Part shown: positions 4,877 to 51,599 of the stretch, one piece after another
Layout of the letters: every line of letters begins with the position of its first letter
Numbering within the stretch: position 1 is the first letter of the stretch
DNA from: Capitulum mitella
Lineage: Eukaryota > Arthropoda > Thecostraca > Pollicipedomorpha > Pollicipedidae
Length of the DNA stretch: 64,000 nucleotides
Reading direction: 5' to 3'
Assembly: GCA_030062745.1 (NCBI GenBank)
Contig: CP099839.1
Coordinates: forward strand, 28,023,451-28,087,450
Notes under the pieces: generated by a model
The model's input: the letters and a program-made list of their open reading frames with translations, nothing else
Told to the model about the DNA's origin: nothing
Database searches by the model: none
Position numbers and translations under genes: made by a program

Positions 4877-7711
4877 GCACTACGATCCCAGCGGAGACGG
4901 AAAACGATTAGGTACGCTCCTTTGTGATCCGAGAGGTCGCTACATGTGCAGCGTTCAGATTAGTTATTCTTAGGGATCAGATAAGTTATTCTTAGAAAGG
5001 AACGTACTTTGTTTCGTTCCTCTACCTCGATTAGAAGAGCATTGAGGTGGGGATAGGAACCCTCGTCCGGAACGTAGGGACAGATGCTTACCTCCGGTGA
5101 AAATAAGTATGTCAGATATGTAAAACGGGTTAAACATAACCAGTGAATCCCCTTTGGGAGCGATCGTGCCGCATACTGTGTTGCACCCGTTTGAACGCAT
5201 ATTGAATCTGTTATCAGAATTTCTGGAGTAAAGGTTGCATCAGACCTTTTCATTTGACGGGGATCTACAAACGTATGTGTATATAAGGTGGATGACTATA
5301 GTGGAAATGACCGTCATGGAGGACCATGGGTTTCACGAGGCCAAAACGACATAGATGGTATCAAAACACCAGATTACAATCTCTCGTCTTCCTCGTGCAT
5401 GTTAGCTTTTGAGAAGTCTTTCTTCAACGAAGAAAACTTCGAACGTGCGCGGTGTCAGCATGATCTTAACGTATCTTAATACAGCTGCCAGCTCATACGC
5501 TATAGGTTGCAAGTTACGAACTGTGCTATGCGACTCACGAATGGCAGCTGACGGTACCTTCGGTTGGTTGTTCGACCGCAAGAGGGCACCACCCGTGTTG
5601 GGCTGAGGTGTTAGGTAGGAACGCAGTGCGGCGTTGCGACTGAAAGCGGACTGAATGACTTATGGCACAAATATTGGGGTGTGTACTTACAGCCGATTGA
5701 ACCGAGAGTTGGTTTGATGGTCCTGCTTTGTCCTGTGCAAATGTTTCAGAATGACCCGATGCGAAGAGCAGTAACGTATTTCCAGGGTTGTACACAGGAT
5801 TGCATTGGAACTTTTCCAGTCCGTGGGACAATCGATCTTTGTTTACGTTAAGCGGAAAAATGGGTTGTGAAGAGCCGGCTTTCCAATATGAGGAATGAAT
5901 AGAACGAAAGTCGTGTGTTAAGGGATGCCTAAGTCGCACACTCTTTCAGATCAGTACCTTCGATAGCCACGGCAGTGGGAACAGTAACAGATTAAGTGAA
6001 TTTTATAATGCCGCGACGGCGCAGTGCCAGCGCTGAAGATCGGGGACGGTGAGGGAGCACTGTGTAAAACCGCCGGCTGGCAACAGACGTCAGCTATTGT
6101 CAGCCAGGTTATTGGCAATCGCATCAGTGAAACATCCGACGCTTGCTGGTTTTCGTGTGTAGGATCAGAAGTAGCATTTTCAGATGTTTTTCGGGCGGTT
6201 TTAAGTATGCGTTTTCGTCATTATGAAGGACTTCGCAACTTTACTTGATATTGCAGCGGACGTTCTGAGTAAAGGGTTGTCGTCTGGTGGATAATGGGTG
6301 CGTTTGGAAGCCGTTACTGGAACGATGGTCGTGGAGCGTGATAAGTTCACATCTTGGACTCAGCGATGGGATGTAGATCTTTCGTTTACCACATTTGAAA
6401 CCGGAGAGGACGTATTTTGTTTTTTATTCATTATGCATATTTTTTCTTTCACGGTTCGTGATAAGCGGCGCAGGGTGGGTCCTGTTAAATTGATGTCGAT
6501 ATTTGTAGAATTTCGCGTAGTTTCATTACATACGAACAAATTTCACATCCTCCACTCCACAGTGGGATGATTTTTTTTGTTTGTTGTGCTTTGTTCGTTG
6601 TTTGAGATGCAGATAGTCTCGCACTTTTGGTTATCTCTGTATAGGAGTTTACACCAGCTGGTTATTTGTTATGGGTTCCATTGAGGCCACTTTAGACATT
6701 TTAATTTGAATACAGCATTCGTAGGACGTGATGAGTTTTCATGGTTTGTCATGTGTAAAGTCATTTGTGTCGTTGCGGTGCAAAGGTCTACCGTATGTTG
6801 CGATTGCATTGTTTGGCCTTGCAGGCGTTGTCATGTGCAACAAGCTCCAGCGTTCTTTAGAGCACTGCGCTTTGCCAGCACTGAAGCCTGGCCCAGTGCC
6901 TGCCCGCAAACGTAACCAGCGCATTAAGCTGCCTTTGTGATTGCCGAACGTAACGTAAGATGGTGCTCCGGGTGTGCTGCAGTTTTTGTTTCACTGACAG
7001 GTTATTAATGGGAGTTTTGGCTGAGAAGGTTGGTATTGGGATAGGTTTTGGGATTCGGATTTTCGTATGGGTACATTCGAATATTCGGATCGAATATTCG
7101 AATCTTTTGAAGTTGGTGCCACTTCGTCCAAAAAGGTGGGATCAGAGCAACATGTGAAAATCAGACTGACCTGCAATGCCTGGACAACTTGGAAAACTTT
7201 AAAGCTGCCACCGGCGCCGAACTCCGGGCGGACATCGTCCAGGCAAGGGAGGGGTATGACGTCATCGACGGAGGGCGCTGTGATTGGCAGCCATGTTGCT
7301 CTGGAACCAGAGATACAGACCGTGAAGCCTATACGATACGTATAGCCTATACGGCGCTTCGAAATGATTAGTTTGAGAAGGAGATATAGATGTGGGAAAG
7401 CAACAAGGACTAGGATCCGCTTGATCTTCGGTATTACCCCTAATCACTCTGTGACATGTATTTCCAGCATCGACATCAAAATGTGATTTTTGTGAGCGGT
7501 GTACGTACATGTTTTTACGTCATTTTAAAGCGCGCAGTTGAACGTGGTTAAGGTCGTGCTAAACATACTATGTTTAAAAATAATCACAGTTTCGCAACGG
7601 GAAATTCGAATGTTGTCGTGAGGATAGTATGTAGGAACTCCCGGGGTCTCAGTTCTCGGTTCGATTTGGGACTAGTATATGTCCGTGATGATGGAAAATC
7701 AGCATATGTGC
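4877..7711. other. No gene seen
   Basis: About 2.8 kb between two family A copies. Reading frames here (the longest is a 134-codon frame on the - strand, 5535-5939) show no motif, no codon bias and no plausible splice context. Near 7070-7110 the words cgaatattcgg and gaatattcgaat cluster; a similar cluster recurs at 9280-9430. Otherwise nothing is recognised. Confidence 0.4.
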
Positions 7712-28727: not shown

Positions 28728-28839
28728 GTGAGTGGCACGCCTCGCCGGCGCGCGGGGTCACACCCTCCGGCACGCAGTGGGACGTCCCGCCAGTCCCCAC
28801 TGGGACGCCTCAACAGGGCTTACTGGGACGTTCCATCAG

Positions 28840-29200
28840 AGCGCACTGACAGTCCCACTAGGGCGCATTGAGACGTCCCACCAGGGCGCACTGACACGTT
28901 CCACCAGGGTGCATTGAGACATCCCACCATGGTCCACTGGGATGTCCCACCAGGATCCACTGACACATCCCACCAGGGTGCATTGAGACACCCCACCATG
29001 GTCCACTGGGATGTCCCACCAGGGCCCACTGACACGTCCCACCAGGGCGTACTGAGACGTCCCACCCGAGCCCACTGACACGTCCCACAAGAGCGTACTG
29101 AGACGTCCACCAGGGCGTACTGGGACGACTGAGCTTCACGATGCGTCCCACCAGGGTGCACTGAGACCTCCCGCCAAGGCGTACTGGGACGACTGAGGTT
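28840..29200. repeat. 23-bp GC-rich minisatellite
   Basis: About 14 units of gggcgcactgagacgtccca plus cca. Unit types alternate (ctgacac, ttgagac, ctgggat) with a local 69-bp higher-order repeat (tggtccactgggatgtccca recurs 69 bases apart, near 28930 and 28999). Every frame is open because the unit is not a multiple of three and lacks stops. The long frames here are artefacts. Confidence 0.92.
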
Positions 29201-29902
29201 CAGGTGTTACGCCCTGCCCTGTGGGCGCGATGAGGTGGGGCGCCGCCGGAGTGGATCGAAGCTTAATACCACCGCCGCCCTACTGACACGTATCCTGTTG
29301 ACAGCCTGCCTCCGACGAAAGCAAACGTCATGTAATATCCTTCTGGCATGATGAGCTTGGTCGGTGCCCCCACGCAGGCACGTCATGGCGGATTTAATAT
29401 CTGTGCTGTGCGCTAGTCGCGTGATGCCTCGTGATGAGTGCAGGCAGTTGCGCACATCTATTTTCAGCACACGCGTATGGTGCGCAATAAGCATGGCTAC
29501 ATGAGGAGCTGAAGCAATATAGGCTTATTGCTGTTGTCTCCGGGCCCTTGTGGAGAATCGGTCGCTGGTCCATAAAAGCCAAGCCACACAACAGTGTTGA
29601 CTGACGTTTTCCCCGTTTCCCCAATTCTGGGAATCCTTTAGCTAAATAAAGTTTCCGAGTCAGGCTTGTGCTCGCCGTTACTTGGGTGATCCGGGTCAGG
29701 ATCTGAATCACAGTGACTTGATCGAGATCAGCATTTGAATCATGGACATTTTGTAAGTCTGATCGAATATCATGTGATTCACGTAGGTTTTTCGAAACTG
29801 ATCCGAATCAAACGTTGGTTTATGAGCTCTTCGTTGGTTCTGATCAGCCATTGATTAAAAACATCAATTACGTATCAGCGTGACCGCATTTACTATAAAA
29901 AA

Positions 29903-42252: not shown

Positions 42253-43416
42253 TCAGGCGCTGGCGCCGGAGCTGGAACCGGCGCCGCCGTCGGCGGTCGC
42301 GTCCGTCCTGCTGAGCAGCGAGCGCAGCGACGCCACCTCCATGGAGAGCCGCTCGAGCTCGCTGCGGATCTGGCCGCCGGAGGGCGCCGGCGCCAGCGCC
42401 GGCTCGGCTGCGCTCGAGCGGCGCCGCTTGTTCGCCGGCGAGGCGGCCGCGTCGTCGCTGCCGGCCGAGCGGTCTGACAGGCCCGAGTCGCGCTCGTCGC
42501 CCGACGACGCAGAGTCGTGCGGCTCCTCCTTGACGGCCGGCGGCGGCTGGGCCCACTCGCCGAGCCGCGTCTTGTGGCGCAGCTTGAGCGGCAGCGAGCG
42601 CTGCTCGGCGCCCGGCGAGCCGGGCCCGGCCACCGGCCGCTCGGCCGCCGGCTTCGTCAGGTTGACGGCGGCGCCGAACTCGGGCGTCAGCCGGTCCGAG
42701 TCGGCCGAGCGCGGCCGCCACGGCTCGGCGGCGGGCGCCTCCGGCCGGCGCAGCTCCAGCAGCGACTGCTGCCGGTACACGAACGGCGCCGCCTCGCGGC
42801 CGGGCAGCGCCGCCGGCGCCGATGGCGGCGTCACCGGACGGAACTGGCGCGTCGCGCCGCTGGCGCCGGCCGCCGCGCCCAGCGGGAACGCCGTGGCGGC
42901 GGCGCTGCTCAGCTGCAGCAGGCTGGCCGCCGCCAGCGGCTTGGGCCGCTTGCTGAAGCCCAGGATGCGATCCATGGAGGGCAGCTGCGCCAGCACTTGC
43001 TCCACGTCGATGTGGTTCTCGCCGACGATGCCGAACTTGTCGCGGATGGTGTTGAGCTGCGCGCGCAGCAGATAGTTGTCCTTGGTGAGCTCGGCCACGC
43101 GCGTCTCCAGGATCATGTCGTTGAAGCGGCGCTTCTCTCGGCTGCGTTTGGCCGCCTCGTTGTTGCGGCGACGCCTGTCCCAGTAGCTCTGATCCTTGCG
43201 CGTGTCCTGGATGAATTCGCGCCGTTTCCTCTGGCCCGCACCCGGCTCCTGTGGCTGTGGCGTCGGCAGCGCCTCTGGCGGCGCTATCTGGAGACTCTCT
43301 TCTGTCTCGTGGCTGCCGCCTGGCGGGTAGTAGTAACCGCCAGCCTCCGGGGCGGGAGCGTAGCGGACCTTGACGTCACCATATTGAACTGACCCGAAGA
43401 TATTCTCCGTCACCAT
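42253..43416 (-). CDS. vri: Vrille / NFIL3-type bZIP transcription factor
   Basis: 387 residues in one exon. Vrille (NFIL3/E4BP4 family) is a nuclear repressor of the arthropod circadian clock that binds TTAYGTAA sites, including those in Clock. The bZIP begins RKRREFIQDTRKDQSYWDRR (about residues 63-82). The basic region RRRRNNEAAKRSREKRR is at 81-97, and the zipper has L103, L110, L117 and I124 at heptad spacing. KDxSYWDRRRRNNEAAKRSR and the following DKFGIVGENHIDVEQVLAQL are vrille/NFIL3 signatures. The remainder is Ala/Pro/Ser-rich and acidic, with a possible second nuclear signal ANKRRR. The start is the ATG at 43416, just after a splice acceptor (tttctttccag, AG at 43432-43431); the longer upstream frame is intronic. 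The protein is shorter than insect vrille and near NFIL3 in size. The exon is extremely GC-rich, which gives long false frames on the + strand. Confidence 0.93.
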   Translation of the reverse strand: MVTENIFGSVQYGDVKVRYAPAPEAGGYYYPPGGSHETEESLQIAPPEALPTPQPQEPGAGQRKRREFIQDTRKDQSYWDRRRRNNEAAKRSREKRRFNDMILETRVAELTKDNYLLRAQLNTIRDKFGIVGENHIDVEQVLAQLPSMDRILGFSKRPKPLAAASLLQLSSAAATAFPLGAAAGASGATRQFRPVTPPSAPAALPGREAAPFVYRQQSLLELRRPEAPAAEPWRPRSADSDRLTPEFGAAVNLTKPAAERPVAGPGSPGAEQRSLPLKLRHKTRLGEWAQPPPAVKEEPHDSASSGDERDSGLSDRSAGSDDAAASPANKRRRSSAAEPALAPAPSGGQIRSELERLSMEVASLRSLLSRTDATADGGAGSSSGASA

Positions 43417-43430
43417 CGTGAATGTTCGCT

Positions 43431-43441
43431 CTGGAAAGAAA
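43431..43441 (-). promoter_or_regulatory. vri: Splice acceptor before the vrille coding exon
   Basis: On the - strand the sequence reads tttctttccag, then 14 bases, then ATG. So the gene has at least one upstream exon, probably 5' UTR, in or beyond the CpG islands at 44.5-48.9 kb. Confidence 0.7.
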
Positions 43442-43618: not shown

Positions 43619-44519
43619 TCATGCATGCAATGCACTTCGCTGCATTCAGCAAGGCAGAGTTCATTCACATGCATTCAGAAAAGAAGGCAATAGCCCATAT
43701 CTTGTTGTTCACTGCAATACATCCTGCTCCCATATTACGAGTCAGTGGTGAATCAATGCGCTGGTAAGCCATGACTCACTGCATGACAAACCAAAACAGT
43801 GATTCATAACTCGACTGGTTATGGCGGCGGAAAGACTTCATGGCGGAAAATTCCACACCGTCTTAGGGAGTTTTTTTTTCGTATTGCGCAGAGATGACAG
43901 CGTAGTTACGAAACAAACCGCGAGTTCCGGTCACTTCCAACCTTTACGTCGCTTTGTCATAGTCCGTTTTCGCTGAAGGCATGTAAATGACCACGCCATT
44001 CGGGCCTTTGACCAACTTACTGCGAGCAAAAACTTGCTTACAAGATAGAAAATGTCACAAAAACTGGGTGAAAAGTGCAAATGAACCCGATACAATATAC
44101 CCTCGTCAGCGACAGCATGGAATGCGACGAGGGTCCGACCCGTTTCTGCCGCTCAAAGGCGTATCCAGAAGAGGGGTGAAGGACCGGGCTGTCTTACGGG
44201 AGAGCAAACAGATGATGGGACGAAAACATCGCTGGCATTGTGGCACGTCTGATGACAAATTCACACGTATTTTACCTAGGGACCCATTTCAGCAAAATCA
44301 GGCACGCCCCCGCTGCCACTGAAATTCAACCATTCTTCGCCCGTGACCAAACGGGTTGGTGCCCACTCTTGGCAAAACTCCAACTGCGTCGTAACGAAGC
44401 ACCAACAAAGCTTTCAGAAGCCCGCTCATCATGACGCAACTCGCCTCGGCCGATGAACGCCGCGACACTGATAAACCGCCACTCGCGATCTGCCTTCCTG
44501 GCCGGTGTTAGGCTCCCGG
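43619..44519. other. Presumed 5' intron of vrille; no gene seen
   Basis: About 900 bases of ordinary sequence. A TGACGCAA motif (44432-44439) is the first of the bZIP-type sites listed upstream. Confidence 0.45.
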
Positions 44520-44758
44520 TGCCAGACGCCAGGCGAGTAATCTAGGGCGGGGTTGCGTCATGCACGATCCCGCAGATCGGACGCCCCAGGGTACTATTTC
44601 CGAGTGCCCCGACTCGGACTCCGAAGTGCGCGGCGCGGCGCGGCGCGTCCCCGCCGGCCGGCCTGCCCGCCTGAGGTGACGTTCCCGAGCGTTCAGAGAC
44701 GTCACCGCATCCGTGTCGGGCACGCAGCGTCAAGACTCGTGCAGAGCCGGCGCGGCGC

Positions 44759-44766
44759 TTACGTAA
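44759..44766. promoter_or_regulatory. D-box palindrome TTACGTAA, site 1
   Basis: A perfect 8-bp match to the NFIL3/vrille/PAR-bZIP consensus TTAYGTAA in the context gcgcTTACGTAAcac. On the - strand it also reads ac|gtaagc, a possible splice donor. Confidence 0.6.
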
Positions 44767-44935
44767 CACGGCGGAACCGCGGAGGCGGCCGCCGCTGCCA
44801 TGCAGAGCAGCGCTACCCCGTTTCCCCTACGGACAACACCCGACGTCGGCCGCCGCCGCCGATTCCGCGAGCGCCGAGAACTTCTGCAAAGGTCAGCGCC
44901 GACTTCCTCCGAGTTCTGTCCGGGTCGGCACGGGT

Positions 44936-44941
44936 CACGTG
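44936..44941. promoter_or_regulatory. E-box CACGTG 1
   Basis: Perfect E-box in gggtCACGTGagcc, first of four within 156 bases. Confidence 0.6.
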
Positions 44942-44969
44942 AGCCGGTCTTCCGGCCACCGGGCGGCCG

Positions 44970-44975
44970 CACGTG
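44970..44975. promoter_or_regulatory. E-box CACGTG 2
   Basis: Perfect E-box in gccgCACGTGcggt, 28 bases after the first. Confidence 0.55.
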
Positions 44976-45068
44976 CGGTGGCCGGTCGTCTCGGCCGGCC
45001 TACGTGCCTGCTCCGACGACCGACGAGGGCGGCGGCGGCACGCGACCTGCGGCGCGCCGCGGACGCGT

Positions 45069-45074
45069 CACGTG
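45069..45074. promoter_or_regulatory. E-box CACGTG 3
   Basis: Perfect E-box in gcgtCACGTGcccg. Confidence 0.55.
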
Positions 45075-45085
45075 CCCGAACGGGT

Positions 45086-45091
45086 CACGTG
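45086..45091. promoter_or_regulatory. E-box CACGTG 4
   Basis: Perfect E-box in gggtCACGTGtgcc, 11 bases after the third; its left flank equals that of the first. Confidence 0.55.
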
Positions 45092-45213
45092 TGCCGCGTT
45101 GGCTGCGTATCGATCGTCGCCGGCGACCCCGTCCGGCGGAAGGCGCGGAGGCGGCGGCCGGAGGCGGGGCGGCCGGCCGCCGCAGTCGCCCGGTGGCGGC
45201 CGTCGCGGCGCGC

Positions 45214-45221
45214 TTACGTAA
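45214..45221. promoter_or_regulatory. D-box palindrome TTACGTAA, site 2
   Basis: A second perfect TTACGTAA in gcgcTTACGTAAcgc, sharing its 5' flank with site 1 at 44759. The two D-boxes bracket the four E-boxes. Confidence 0.6.
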
Positions 45222-46300
45222 CGCCCGCCGCTCGCCGGGAGTGGCCGGACGAGCCGGCTATTTCGGGAGGGTGACGGAGCCCGGCCGCCGCTCGACCAAG
45301 GGCACGCGGCAGCCGGCCGGCACGGCGCTGCCTGCGGCGGCTGCTCGGCCGCCGGCTGCTCGCAGCTGCCGCCGGGCCGTGGCTGCGGGGGCGGGCGCGA
45401 GTCACGGGCGGGCCTGAGTCACCGCGGCAGGACGCGGACGCCGTCGGCCGTGACTCACCGACTCCGCGCGGCCGCGGATCACCCCACGGACCGGTTGCAT
45501 CACACGGCGACGTGGCCGCCGGACCGCGCCGGGCACGGCCGCGGCTCGGAGGCCGTGCCAGGGCCGCCTCCCGGGCCCGGCGCCAGACTGCCAGGCCTGC
45601 CGGAAAGCCGGAACAGCTGCCGGCCGCCAGCCGACACCTGTTTGTTTGGCGAGGCCTGCCGCCTGCCGTCGGAGTACGCGCCGGGTGATGCAACGCGCCC
45701 CGGTGTCCGGTGCCAGCCGCTGACTCAGCCGCCAGCGGCGCGCGGTCGCAGCGGCTCAGACCAGGTTCCCGCCGTTTCCAACCAGCCGGAGCTGCTCAGA
45801 GCCGGCTGCAGCCGCAACAGACCAGGCTCCCTCAGTCTATCCCGGCTGCAAACGTCACAGGGCTCAGCAAATGTCAAACGTGCTCTCCGAGACGGACCCG
45901 GACGGAGCCACGTCCCTGACCACGGAGAACGGGCCGACGGCTCGCGTCCGCCACCGCGCTGCGCCCCCCTGTCCGCAAGCCGCGCCGCGGGCCGGTCTCC
46001 AGCGCCGGCCCGGTGAAGCGCCTGTGCGCCGACCGGGCCGGGCCGGACCGCCTGAAACGAGGCGCGCCGGCGCGGCCGGCCGGGCGGCTTTCCCGGCGCG
46101 GCTGGCCGCCGGAAGTGTTACGCGGCCCGGCCCGGCCCGGCACAGACGGCCGGTCGACGGCCGCGGCGCCGACTCACGCCGAGATGTGGGACGCGCCGCC
46201 GCCGGGTCGCTGTCCCGCCAGCAGAGCGCGGCCGCCGCCAACGCCGGCCAGGCATCGAGGCGATCAGCACACGGCACGCGGCGAATGGCACGGCTTCTGG

Positions 46301-48480
46301 GTTTCGCAGTTTTACGATGCCGGACATTTCTCGAAGAGATCGTGGATATTCTCTCAGGATATGCCCTGCTTTTGCACCACAGGCCTACTGACGGCGGCGC
46401 CACCGAGGTTGAGGAAGAGGTATTCGCAGACTCTGGCTCCTCCTTCACAGAAATGTTGGCAACGACCCCTACGCCAACCGTCGTCAATCCGTTATAGCTG
46501 CAGCAGTTGGCCAGAGAAAACGGTTCCGACGTAGATCACAGCGATGTCCCTGAGATGCCACGGACAATGCCTGCTGGAGACCTTCGACTGCGGCCAAATT
46601 TTCCCCGCGCCCAATTAAACAATGCAATTGAAACACACCGCAGGGGCTGGCAGAGACCGGCAGGCCAGGAAGTAACGCTGGCGGCTCCGCCAGATCATTA
46701 GTTAGATACTGCAGACATGCAAGACGCAGCATTTTGTCTGGTGTTCGGCTAATGGCCCACTATTCCGGAAACAGTGTGCAGGTCACTGTAATGGCCAGTC
46801 CGTCAGTCACCCTCCACAGATAAACACTGCAAACAATCTGCTACCGCATTCCTCAGAAGACTTCATGACCTGACAGAACGCCGACGAACGCCGCAGAAAT
46901 CGGTTGACAGACCAGACATCGTCAAATCTCTGCCGTGATGCCCCTCTCCGACAGTTCCGCGCACGGCACCGAAGCACCGCACGACTCGACTCCGGACGAC
47001 GCCCGGCCCACAGCCTCCCGGGGGAGGGCGACAGGCTCGCGGGGCCTATCGCACTCGCCGCCCCTGCGCCGGCCGGAAGCCAGGGTCACCACCCCCGCCG
47101 CACGGGCAGGGACGGCCTCCTCGCACGGCGCGGCACGGCGCGGCGTCTCACACCGGCGTCTTTGTGCCGCTGCACTGGGCCCGCTGACGTCAATGGGATT
47201 GCACAAGCTGGCGGGGTCACGCACCGAGCCCGGCCAGGGCGGGGGCCAGCCGCCGCACGGTCAGTTGCATCAGGCGTCCGGGCGGCGGCGGCAGTACGTC
47301 CGAAGTCCGCCCAGGACGAGCCGACATTCCATCCGGGGTCGCCGCGCCGGCCGCCGGCGGTTTCGGCGACCGCCGGCGGCTCGCCCTCCAGCAGAGTCGG
47401 ACTCCCAGTCAACGCTGGGCCCGGTCCGGCACCCGGCTGCGGCAGGCGTAGGAGGTCCCGGAGGTCCCCCGGCCACGGAAAGCCCACAATCACAGCGCGA
47501 CGCATCACGGCGTGACTCGGCACAACGTGCAATGCCGCGACGATAAGCCACGTATCGGCAGTGCTACTGAAATCTAGGAAACGAAATGGCATGATGCGAC
47601 TAAAAGGCGGTGCAATGCATGACAGCTCCTTAAGCGGCTGCTTTGTGATGTGAACACGGCATGACAACTTCGGTTTGCCCGGGCAGAAGTCCAAGCTTCC
47701 CATGCCGAAACGAACGCAAAGAAATGTGCACTCGTTGACCGACAGCACGTGCAGCTTTAGACTTGTCGAGAAGTCCTTCCTTCACCAGGGCTAAGGACCT
47801 ATCTAGCTTACTGCATGACAAAGAAGCGCTAAAAACTTCGTCCACCGTCGCGGGAACCAAGGTCCACCTACTTCAGAAAGCCCTGATGAACAGGAGTGAC
47901 ACGTTCCCAAATTTCCGGGCATTCTGAGCTTACGGCATTCTGAACCCTTCTGTTAACTGGGGGGAGGCGGTGATGCACCTGCATCCCCAACATACAATAA
48001 TGAGTTCCACCCGTGCTGATGAAGGTGTCGGATCTACACGACCTGTCGGCGACGCGTGACAGGAACGTGCCGTCCGAATGAACCCGGTGTGCTTTGAACT
48101 TTCCACTGTCTGAGGGCGAAGCCGCGTTACCCAGTTTCAATGAGCTCAACTGAAATCAGGCATGCTATGGGCGACGACTGATGATGACCGTTTCGGGTTC
48201 ACATATCATTTAACACGATACAACGTTGGGGACCAAACACCGACCGGATCAAAGATCAGCTGAACAGCCCTCATTCGAGCCTCACACAGCTCCACACAGC
48301 CTGCGTTCGGACAAACGAACACAGTGCCAATAGCAGTCTCCGTGCATTGGCGCGGTGCACTGGCGTTCACCTGCTAACCACCGAACAAATCTTTCTCACC
48401 TTGCACTATTTGATGAGCCTCGGCTGCAGTTTCCGCCTTGCGTGGACCTATGTTCCGTCCACTGACTGCCCTTCCGCGCG
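46301..48480. other. Upstream region of vrille with a second CpG block
   Basis: No gene recognised. A G/C-rich block at about 46930-47530 holds a full CRE (TGACGTCA, 47185-47192). The several frames of about 200 codons on both strands are overlapping composition artefacts. The rest (47550-48440) is ordinary sequence. Confidence 0.45.
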
Positions 48481-48860
48481 TCGTCCACGAGACCAGCTGG
48501 CGGTGTGTATTCGTACCACGAGGCGACGCGACCAACTGCTCCGACGGACGGCGCCGCGGCCGACCTCGGCTCGCCGGTGACGCCACCACGCGGCGCCGGC
48601 CCGGCCGCATGACGTCACCGCTGACGTCACCCGGCCGGTTTTGCCAAGCGGGGCCAATCGGCGCTGCGCGGCGGCGTCCGGCGCGGCGTCACATCGGTCC
48701 GCGGCGCCGGCGGTGATTCAGGGAAGCCCGCGCAGTGGCCGGCCCGCGGCCGCGGGTTCTTACGCGCCGGAACGGGCTCTTACGGCCGGCCGCCGGAAGG
48801 TGGCACGTAATGGGTGAGCCACGCCGGACGAGAGGTGGCCCAGGTGAGTGGCGGACAGGG
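48481..48860. promoter_or_regulatory. Third CpG block with paired CRE sites
   Basis: Two TGACGTCA palindromes at 48610-48617 and 48622-48629, four bases apart, in a dense CpG context. This could be a distal vrille promoter or the start of an unseen gene on either strand. The + strand stretch ggcccaggtgagtggc near 48840 contains a donor-like CAG|gtgagt. Confidence 0.4.
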
Positions 48861-51599
48861 TGGCCGGCGTCGGAACCGGGGCTTTCCGGTCTGTTCAGAC
48901 CACAGGAGAACCGCAGACGTTCTGAAAACTAACGAAGATATAAATAGCTGCTTGATGCGGCGAACAAATACAGCGAGGTCGGTGATGACTTCGCTAAGCG
49001 CCTTTTGTCTGAAGGTCATAAAACGGGCTGCAGGTAAATGGCATGGAAAGTTGAGCACATCGAGAAAGACGTATTATAAATGCACATAAGCATGCATTCA
49101 GTAAAACAACGATCGTGAATCATTTCACATGCAGAAATCAACAATGCTATAATCTTGTTTAAATAGCTCTATAAGAAGGCGTATAGTCTGCCGAAACGAT
49201 GTCTGGCTTTCCTGACCTTGTTTTCATCCGGAGCCGATCTCTGAGGTATTGTTCATGCGTCTGAGATGGGGTGCGGTGGCGAGCTGAACGTGCATGGTAC
49301 TACATAGACCCAATTCAAACAGACGTAACTTCTCACAAAGTGATGCCTGGAATTAGGGCATCGAATGAAACTCAAAATAATGAACGTCGTAACTCCGAGA
49401 TCCGTTTCAGTCCTACCAAAGGCAAACAGACCAGTCGGCACGTTGGTAACACGTCAGCTGCATTTATTTGTTTATTTATTTACGTCGCAGGATCATCCCA
49501 AAACATGACCGACGTCACAGGGGCTATTCTCGATCCCCAGCCACCACACCTGAGGGGTAGAAAAGGTCAGAGAAACACACAAGCAGTACATTCGTCCCAC
49601 ATGTCAAATTAACTTTGTCCAGAAATGTTAAAAGGGGAGGCTGCCATGCGCAACCTAACATCACCGACGGCCGTAAGATGTCGCAGTAAGGTAATGCTCA
49701 GCTGGAGTTTGAACAGTCGAATAAACGTATCAGCCACATCTGGTGGTAAGGTGTTGAACAACAAGGCGGCGATATACGAACTGCCTCTTTCCAGTCATCG
49801 AACCACCGATACGAGGTAGGCTGAGCAGGCGGTCCTGCCGGGCATGTCTCACATGATCCAACCGTTCACTGTTCAGACAAAACGATGCGGCAAGGTGCGC
49901 TGGTTCGCCTGTACACCGGATGTTATGAAGTAACGCCAGCGCCTGGTGCTCAAACATGTCTCGGGAAAGAAGCCAGTCCAGGTTTTCCCGCACGGCAGAA
50001 ATGTACGTATGTTTTCTCTTACCGAATATCAGGCTTTCAGCGATATTGGGAATTTTCTATACGGCAGCCATGTTTTAAGCCAAATCGTTTCCATAAACCG
50101 TGAAGCAATACCGGGCGTGAGAGAAAACAAGGACAGAGACAGTGACGGTCAGGGTACCAGAAGGGAGCCAGTGACCGAGGTGGAAGATGCCGGCGGTCTG
50201 CCGGCATCGTCAGACGAAGGACACATAGTTGCCCAGTGGAGCCGACAGCGGAGAGCGACCTTAACCGTAGGCAGACGTACTAATCACAACTGCAGCAACT
50301 CCTCCCATTTGTAGTTTATAGTGGTCACAGCGGTGACGTTTACCTTTCGCGTACACTGGTTTTCAGCTCACGAGTGACGACAGCGGCATCCTGCCGTCAC
50401 GACTGCAGAACAGTGTGAAAACTCGGCGACAGAGCATGTGTTGCGCACTGTTGACTGTTGCAATGGCGCGTTAAAGCTTCTCACATGCCACAAGCTATGC
50501 GAGACATTGCGTCCTGATCATGGCCAAGGTAGACCGGAATGTTTAAAATGTATACTGTGATACAATGACGTGACATTTGGTCAATGCCTCTGCTAACTCG
50601 AGCCGCATGAATGAACACTCGTTGAACAGAGTAACTTATAACAGAGGGTTAAGGTAGATAAAAATTGGCCAGTTTTAGAGACGTGATTGCTTCCAACACC
50701 CTCCTTTGCAGCTAAGGGTGGGACCGCACCACGCAGCATTAGATACCTCAGATTGCCGCGGACAATGGCGTAGGTGACATTGGGGTTCACCATGAATTAT
50801 GTGACTGGCGTGGGGAGGGCGTTAGTGTGTGACAGACTGTTACAGCAGGGAAGATGAAGTTTGGCAGATGGCCACGTAACGCTGTCTCATCAAGGAAGAA
50901 AAGGGCTAATAGCCTAAAAAGCCCAAAAAGAGTGACGTCGAGCAAATGTTGTAGTTCTAGAGCCCTTTGATTATAATTAACTAGCGTCATAATCATTTAG
51001 CGTTATAATCAACCAGGGTCGGTAATTATCGATGCTAATAAACTAAAACAAGTGATGCGCCATTCAAAAGGGCCGAACAGACAAGCAGGGGAGGGGCTGG
51101 CTCAGCGGTACGTAATGTTAGAGGTGTTGTGAATGTTTGATTGGACGTTACGATGCGTTTCAATGCGATAAGTAAGTTAAAAAACAATTGATAAACACCA
51201 AGAATGTTTTACGAATTTCATGGATTGCCTCCTAACGAAACTGCTCGAAGGCATTACGTTGTAAAATGACATTTACCGTGTTTAGCTAGGAGTGTGGAAA
51301 TTGTAATGTATGTTGCTTCGTCCGCATGACTCTCCATAACTTTCTTTGTAATGTTTTCTATTTTCAGACGACGATTCTGGTGTTTTTATTTATCCTCTTC
51401 TTCGGTAAAAAAGAAAGCATTACAAAACACACGTACGAATGAGGTGGTCAGCCATCACTGTATTAAAATAGCTTGCTTCCAAGACGGGAAACATTTTCCA
51501 CCATCCATTCCACTGATTTCCAGATGGATAATGTGCTCCAAGGTAAATAATCCCGATAACCGGTTCTTCATATTACTGGCTTGACGCAAGCGCACTACG
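48861..51599. other. No gene seen
   Basis: About 2.7 kb without recognisable exons or repeats. A 122-codon frame at 49946-50314 has no motif. Confidence 0.4.

Follow-up and report, generated by a model that had tools for sequence, protein, structure and literature searches.

The question raised by this locus is whether the dense group of transcription factor sites upstream of a vrille gene of Capitulum mitella is a control region of that gene, and whether the circadian clock acts through it. The window, that is, the whole stretch of 64,000 nucleotides that was analysed, contains the gene and the sites listed in Table 1. In the reading that we favour, and regard as fairly probable, the region is a cis-regulatory module of vrille, an upstream or first-intron enhancer, which would be older than the separation of two vrille copies. 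It would most likely be driven by CLOCK/CYCLE through the E-boxes and would receive bZIP input through AP-1 and D-box-type sites. Enhancer function, the binding proteins and rhythmic activity are predicted here from the DNA sequence.

The vrille gene and the sites upstream of it

The product of the gene has a detectable Pfam bZIP_2 domain. In a comparison with the PDB at E 0.001 the only matches are two NFIL3 sequences, and the NFIL3 structures are found with E 2e-18. All 12 of the 12 NFIL3 residues checked, seven base contacts and five residues named beside them in the excerpt of PMC10941009, are identical. These results support the naming of the gene as vrille in the initial annotation. It is assigned to the vrille/NFIL3-type factors, with a name that rests on the similarity to NFIL3 and on general features of vrille.

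A putative splice acceptor is located 14 nt before the ATG, and an upstream exon is therefore expected. The two candidate first exons place the module differently, the one at 44322-44276 leaving it upstream of the start and the one at 48465-48400 enclosing it in intron 1, and for this reason the region cannot be called the promoter. It may be the promoter, an upstream enhancer or an intronic enhancer of vrille.

Table 1. Features of the vrille locus, with positions in the window; strand is given where assigned
Feature	Position	Strand	Remarks
vrille/NFIL3-type bZIP coding sequence	42253..43416	-	387 aa, one coding exon from ATG
14-nt 5' leader and AG of putative splice acceptor (TTTCTTTCTTTCCAG)	43417..43432	-	direct sequence reading
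Candidate first exon	44322-44276	-	Inr-like start, donor AG/GTAAAA; module would be upstream of start
Candidate first exon	48465-48400	-	Inr-like start, donor AAG/GTGAGA; module would be in intron 1
Whole module as queried	44553..45800	-	counterpart C10:17454000-17455060, upstream of second vrille
CRE-like half sites	44677 and 44699		motif search
D-box palindrome TTACGTAA	44759..44766		within 13-mer GCGCTTACGTAAC
E-box CACGTG	44936..44941		in GTCACGTGAG
E-box CACGTG	44970..44975		in CGCACGTGCG
E-box CACGTG	45069..45074		in GTCACGTGCC
E-box CACGTG	45086..45091		in GTCACGTGTG
D-box palindrome TTACGTAA	45214..45221		within 13-mer GCGCTTACGTAAC
TATTTCGGGA	45259..45268	+	ten bases common to C10 module, matching series position, opposite strand relative to gene
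AP-1 site TGAGTCA	45415..45421		motif search
AP-1 site TGACTCA	45451..45457		motif search
TTGCATCA/TGATGCAA	45495..45502		D-box#8 of mouse list
TGATGCAA	45686..45693		D-box#8 of mouse list
AP-1 site TGACTCA	45721..45727		motif search

The module region has a GC content of 76% and a CpG observed/expected ratio of 1.25. The initial annotation described four perfect E-boxes within 156 bases, bracketed by two perfect D-box palindromes and surrounded by AP-1 and CRE-like sites, at 1.3-1.8 kb upstream of the vrille coding exon. The six E-boxes and D-boxes were located at the positions claimed, three AP-1 sites (searched as TGASTCA) and two CRE-like half sites are also present, and the D-boxes are 1.34 and 1.80 kb upstream of the vrille ATG at 43416 on the minus strand. 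Two features go beyond that description. The region contains two TGATGCAA/TTGCATCA sites, of which the one at 45495 is presumably ATF/C/EBP-like. In addition, both D-boxes share one 13-mer, which occurs at 12 places in the genome searched (16 contigs, 477 Mb), as does its backwards control, likewise with 12.

The two copies of GTTACGTAAGC on the gene strand could alternatively be splice donors of alternative first exons and not D-boxes. Such donors would agree with the minus-strand GTTAC followed by GTAAG at 45217 and 44762, and with the same orientation of both copies within the same 13-mer. However, a donor would have no need of the full palindrome that is seen here, and a splice donor with C as the final base of the exon is a poor one. 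This explanation appears extremely improbable.

Site density compared with chance and with the genome

Over the whole window, CACGTG shows no enrichment (19 observed, 17.9 expected). The local E-box cluster is unusual, unlike this overall count. In simulations of 2000 regions of 1175 bp per Markov model, four E-boxes within 156 bp appeared in 0%, 0% and 0.25% of cases when the models of order 1, 2 and 3 were trained on the region, and in 0% for all three orders trained on positions 44000-49000. At least one TTACGTAA appeared in 0%, 0.1% and 2.1% of cases with the first training set and in 0.2%, 0.3% and 1.6% with the second.

A background of 258,112 bases, in which some loci overlap and from which we left out the vrille loci and most of those loci that had been selected for such sites, contains 86 CACGTG and 2 TTACGTAA. 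Its stretches of more than 60% GC have 0.62 E-boxes per kb, which corresponds to a probability of about 0.006 for four or more in 1175 bp. No 156-bp stretch of this background has more than two E-boxes, with the exception of L015, where five are found in what is read as a short tandem repeat. Equal site density in unrelated GC-rich stretches had been named in the initial annotation as an observation that would speak against its reading; among the stretches fetched, such density was seen at L015 and at two loci, L048 and L051, that were fetched because of their E-box clusters, and the remaining stretches do not speak against the reading.

At L048 4056-4186 (C1:9447055) there are five E-boxes in 131 bp, at what is read as an exon edge of an ADAMTS-like metalloprotease gene, and about 1 kb from this array, at L048 2876-3005 (C1:9445875), three TTACGTAA and one TTACATAA are found in 130 bp. 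The GC-rich L051 4880-5103 (C1:38483579-38483802) contains four E-boxes in 224 bp with CTTACGTAAG between the first two; no gene served by this E/D-box island at C1:38.48 Mb was found within the 20 kb examined.

Groups of E-boxes are common in the genome. Pairs with a gap of 0-30 occur at 6633 places versus 2887 for the backwards control, triples with gaps of 8-38 at 1069 versus 336, and E-boxes with window-like spacing at 407 forward and 466 reverse places versus 146 and 127. The control word has no CpG and is therefore not a close match as a control, and many of the places listed, not all, are tandem repeats. The abundance of pairs and triples would suit an explanation in which a GC-rich island holds the sites by chance and the likeness of the two vrille copies, described below, comes from shared base composition. 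The AT-rich TTACGTAA inside a region of 76% GC counts against it.

The second vrille copy and its matching module

A bZIP search of the genome gave 14 matches, among which a second vrille (on contig C10), two PAR-bZIP (Pdp1-like) genes and two C/EBP-like genes were recognised by reading the translations. The two vrille proteins are about 50% identical, with 53% (103/193) and 46% (89/192) in their two halves. In the C10 vrille (L025 about 2850-2940) the frame is interrupted in a GC-rich, proline-coding run, and the C-terminal half is in another frame. When the proteins around both genes were compared, no gene apart from vrille was recognised among the matches in the stretches compared, and the rest were read as repeats. 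Two stalked barnacles have 16 chromosomes, and an old genome duplication has been reported for barnacles (PMC11331182); with no shared neighbour genes recognised, we can only infer that the two vrille copies descend from a whole-genome duplication.

The ATG of the C10 vrille is at 17459275. One group of E-boxes upstream of it has five members in 431 bp (17454589, 17454675, 17454955, 17454970 and 17455014) and one more at 17455210, and a second group is located at 17457338, 17457525, 17457541 and 17457569. A TATA box is found at 17459070, about 4 kb downstream of the C10 module, and is closely preceded by a CRE (TTGACGTCAA) that was recognised by eye.

In gene orientation, from 45727 to 44759, the series of sites in the window is AP-1, TGATGCAA, TGATGCAA, AP-1, AP-1, TATTTCGGGA, D-box, four E-boxes and D-box. 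The C10 series, from 17454375 to 17455019 and about 4.3-4.9 kb upstream of the ATG, is AP-1, TGATGCAA, AP-1, TATTTCGGGA, two E-boxes, TTGCGCAA, TTACGCAA and three E-boxes. The order of sites agrees between the modules, but the strands of single sites do not always agree: TATTTCGGGA is sense in C10 and antisense in the window. By blastn the two modules are unaligned beyond short GC-rich matches.

With positions 44553-45800 as the query, rarity-weighted sharing of 9-mers places the C10 module as the best of 2470 overlapping 800-bp segments with a score of 27.4, compared with a mean of 15.0 (SD 3.4, maximum 24.1) for 405 other segments of more than 60% GC. In the reverse query with the C10 module, segments of the window starting at 44801-45701 take all ten top places of 2279, the best with 25.6; the 449 segments of more than 60% GC, with these ten included, have a mean of 9.7 and SD of 3.5, and the best other locus reaches 18.3. 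When shared 8-mers, each of which may be on either strand, are chained collinearly, the C10 module again comes first, scoring 14.4 in gene orientation and 9.9 when reversed; the 818 background values have a mean of 7.0, SD of 1.5 and maximum of 13.0. The two modules are each other's best match in the rarity-weighted and order-aware scans, within a comparison background that is small, overlapping and not random with respect to promoters, consisting of the window and stretches mostly near bZIP and PAS genes. These rankings argue against shared base composition as the source of the likeness. Unweighted counts of shared words, which are dominated by GC-rich words, fail to set the C10 module apart and place other GC-rich loci above it, as a chance island would predict. 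Taking both sides together, we consider the chance island quite unlikely.

E-box, AP-1, TTGCATCA and D-like sites occur together within 800 bp only in these two modules in 285,690 bases, for four motif classes that were selected with both modules already known and with some of the loci overlapping. Since a similar series of sites, identically ordered, has been retained at the second vrille copy, the cluster is probably a genuine clock switch; this conservation is seen within one genome. The module would predate the separation of the two vrille copies, and the similarity suggests common descent of the modules.

For the second E-box cluster of C10 no counterpart was found in the window module; its best matches are at 62 kb of the window and elsewhere. 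Two other candidates for correspondence were rejected. Window position 47183 was considered as a homologue of the C10 TATA/CRE promoter, both containing CCATTGACGTCA and AGTGCAGCGG by eye, yet it is absent from the 15 best segments listed for the C10 promoter query. Window positions 49462-49971 were considered as a conserved element upstream of the C10 vrille, where one copy is found. The genome search, in which 40 of the 143 candidates were scored, gives at least 42 matches including its own place, the others being 72-83% identical, and this sequence is therefore an interspersed repeat.

Putative inputs and comparison with known systems

In the favoured reading, the conserved order would be AP-1, TGATGCAA, AP-1 and TATTTCGGGA, followed by the E-box array and, within or next to this array, D-box-type sites. 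CLOCK/CYCLE would most likely drive vrille rhythmically through the E-boxes. The bZIP proteins (AP-1, PAR-bZIP/Pdp1, C/EBP and possibly VRI) would use the AP-1 and D-box-type sites, and their input may tune phase and amplitude or pass on acute signals.

The feature expected of such a gene, a cluster of canonical E-boxes upstream of vrille, is present. CLOCK-like (C9) and CYCLE-like (C4) exons, named by reading translations, are found in the genome, together with timeless and CRY matches, for which no promoter was located. The fly proteins CLK and CWO bind to E-boxes upstream of vri (PMC5096704). E-boxes alone are described as poor predictors of clock genes (PMC5499816), which counts against a plain CLK/CYC reading. 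The period profile PF21353 has no match in this genome and none in the control genomes. No E-box was found in the 8 kb beside the first timeless hit, for which the position of the timeless promoter was not located.

Tandem E-boxes spaced by 6-7 nt are common in some CLK/CYC enhancers and are not required. Here, a search at 6-7 nt from each E-box found no second E-box-like sequence with zero or one mismatch. The flank GTCACGTG occurs at 8 of the 14 vrille-module E-boxes and at 22 of 106 background E-boxes (Fisher P 0.007), and it also suits factors of the USF/MITF/TFE type. Both observations would favour an alternative in which the region is a conserved vrille enhancer with E-boxes that serve other bHLH factors (USF, MITF/TFE, MYC/MAX or CWO-like repressors), vrille responds acutely to stress or light through the AP-1 and TGATGCAA sites, and the clock is not the main input. 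The presence of two TGATGCAA and three AP-1 sites in the module is consistent with an acute response, as is the induction of the mammalian relative E4bp4 by acid (PMC6687812). The position of vrille as a CLK/CYC target in flies (PMC5096704) and the CLOCK-like and CYCLE-like exons speak against this alternative, which we consider unlikely.

The 8 kb ending within the CLOCK-like gene contain one perfect GTTACGTAAC in a GC-rich stretch (L049 4501, C9:17281500), only two isolated E-boxes and no E-box cluster. This pattern, seen at one gene, is what control of Clk by VRI/PDP1 and of vrille by CLK/CYC would lead one to expect, and points weakly to such an arrangement. In flies, elements of the vri locus are partly more open at dusk and others at dawn (PMC11161047), which would fit a mix of inputs.

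The D-box forms were taken from the list in PMC6687812. The window module contains four listed sites; 33 GC-rich segments average 0.24 such sites and have 2 at most. Sites of the TTAYGTAA type are present. In the mouse liver ranking, among the forms given in the excerpt of that paper, TTACGTAA is only 18th, TGATGCAA is 8th and TTACGCAA is 10th. The Kd of NFIL3 is 0.042 uM on TTACGTAA and 0.81 uM on TTGCGCAA; a central C to T change lowers the affinity approximately 12-fold and CpG methylation approximately 14-fold (PMC10941009). In place of the perfect TTACGTAA, the C10 module contains TTACGCAA, TTGCGCAA and TGATGCAA, and a search of the 15 kb that precede the C10 vrille ATG found no TTAYRTAA. 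Because the perfect D-boxes are missing from the C10 module, we say only that VRI may act on its own gene through them, and they are the least supported part of the initial reading. No report of VRI self-regulation was found in the titles or abstract openings of the papers listed in literature searches. That reading, a circadian promoter or enhancer with a self-feedback loop, can be kept as a probable vrille enhancer with likely clock input, in view of the matching C10 module and the CLOCK-like and CYCLE-like exons. Promoter status, with two competing candidate first exons, and self-feedback are only possibilities.

A speculative and, in our opinion, very unlikely extension is that autoregulation of vrille through high-affinity D-boxes in a CLOCK-driven enhancer is an old crustacean wiring that was split between the copies after duplication. 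The window copy with strong D-boxes would then produce a tight, self-limiting vrille pulse, and the C10 copy would work with weaker D-box variants, the extra E-box cluster and the TATA/CRE promoter. Two vrille pulses timed differently, for example daily and tidal, could result in this shore animal.

The circadian enhancer of Drosophila vrille was reportedly described by Blau and Young (1999) and Cyran (2003). The present locus resembles this enhancer (PMC5096704) in the several canonical E-boxes upstream of vrille and in the CLOCK-like and CYCLE-like genes of the animal. Unlike the fly enhancer, it is known from sequence alone, it has two perfect D-box palindromes with AP-1 and TGATGCAA sites in the same kilobase, and there are two vrille copies with one module each. 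The fly V/P-box (D-box) targets of VRI/PDP1, such as the Clk enhancer (PMC11161047, PMC11668059), are similar in the TTAYGTAA-type sites, in a VRI with the 12 NFIL3 residues and in the GTTACGTAAC upstream of the CLOCK-like gene. However, the sites here join an E-box array beside the own gene of the D-box binder, and the perfect form is not in the second copy. The combined module of zebrafish per2 (PMC2759001) also has E-boxes and D-boxes in one short control module, but it belongs to another gene and animal group, and the gene here encodes a D-box binder.

The clock control regions of crustaceans are little known; in a study of krill, the Clock promoter region was resolved too poorly for a comparison of sites (PMC11668059). 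The vrille module, present in two diverged copies of one genome, offers a short piece of DNA that lends itself to testing; it also suggests that the logic of control may be traceable by the order of sites where the sequence no longer aligns.

Elsewhere in the window, long CA/GT microsatellites at 33.8-34.3 kb and 53.7-54.1 kb give rise to spurious repeat ORFs, and an ORF of similar peptide repeats at 28820-29206 on the minus strand is probably a minisatellite.
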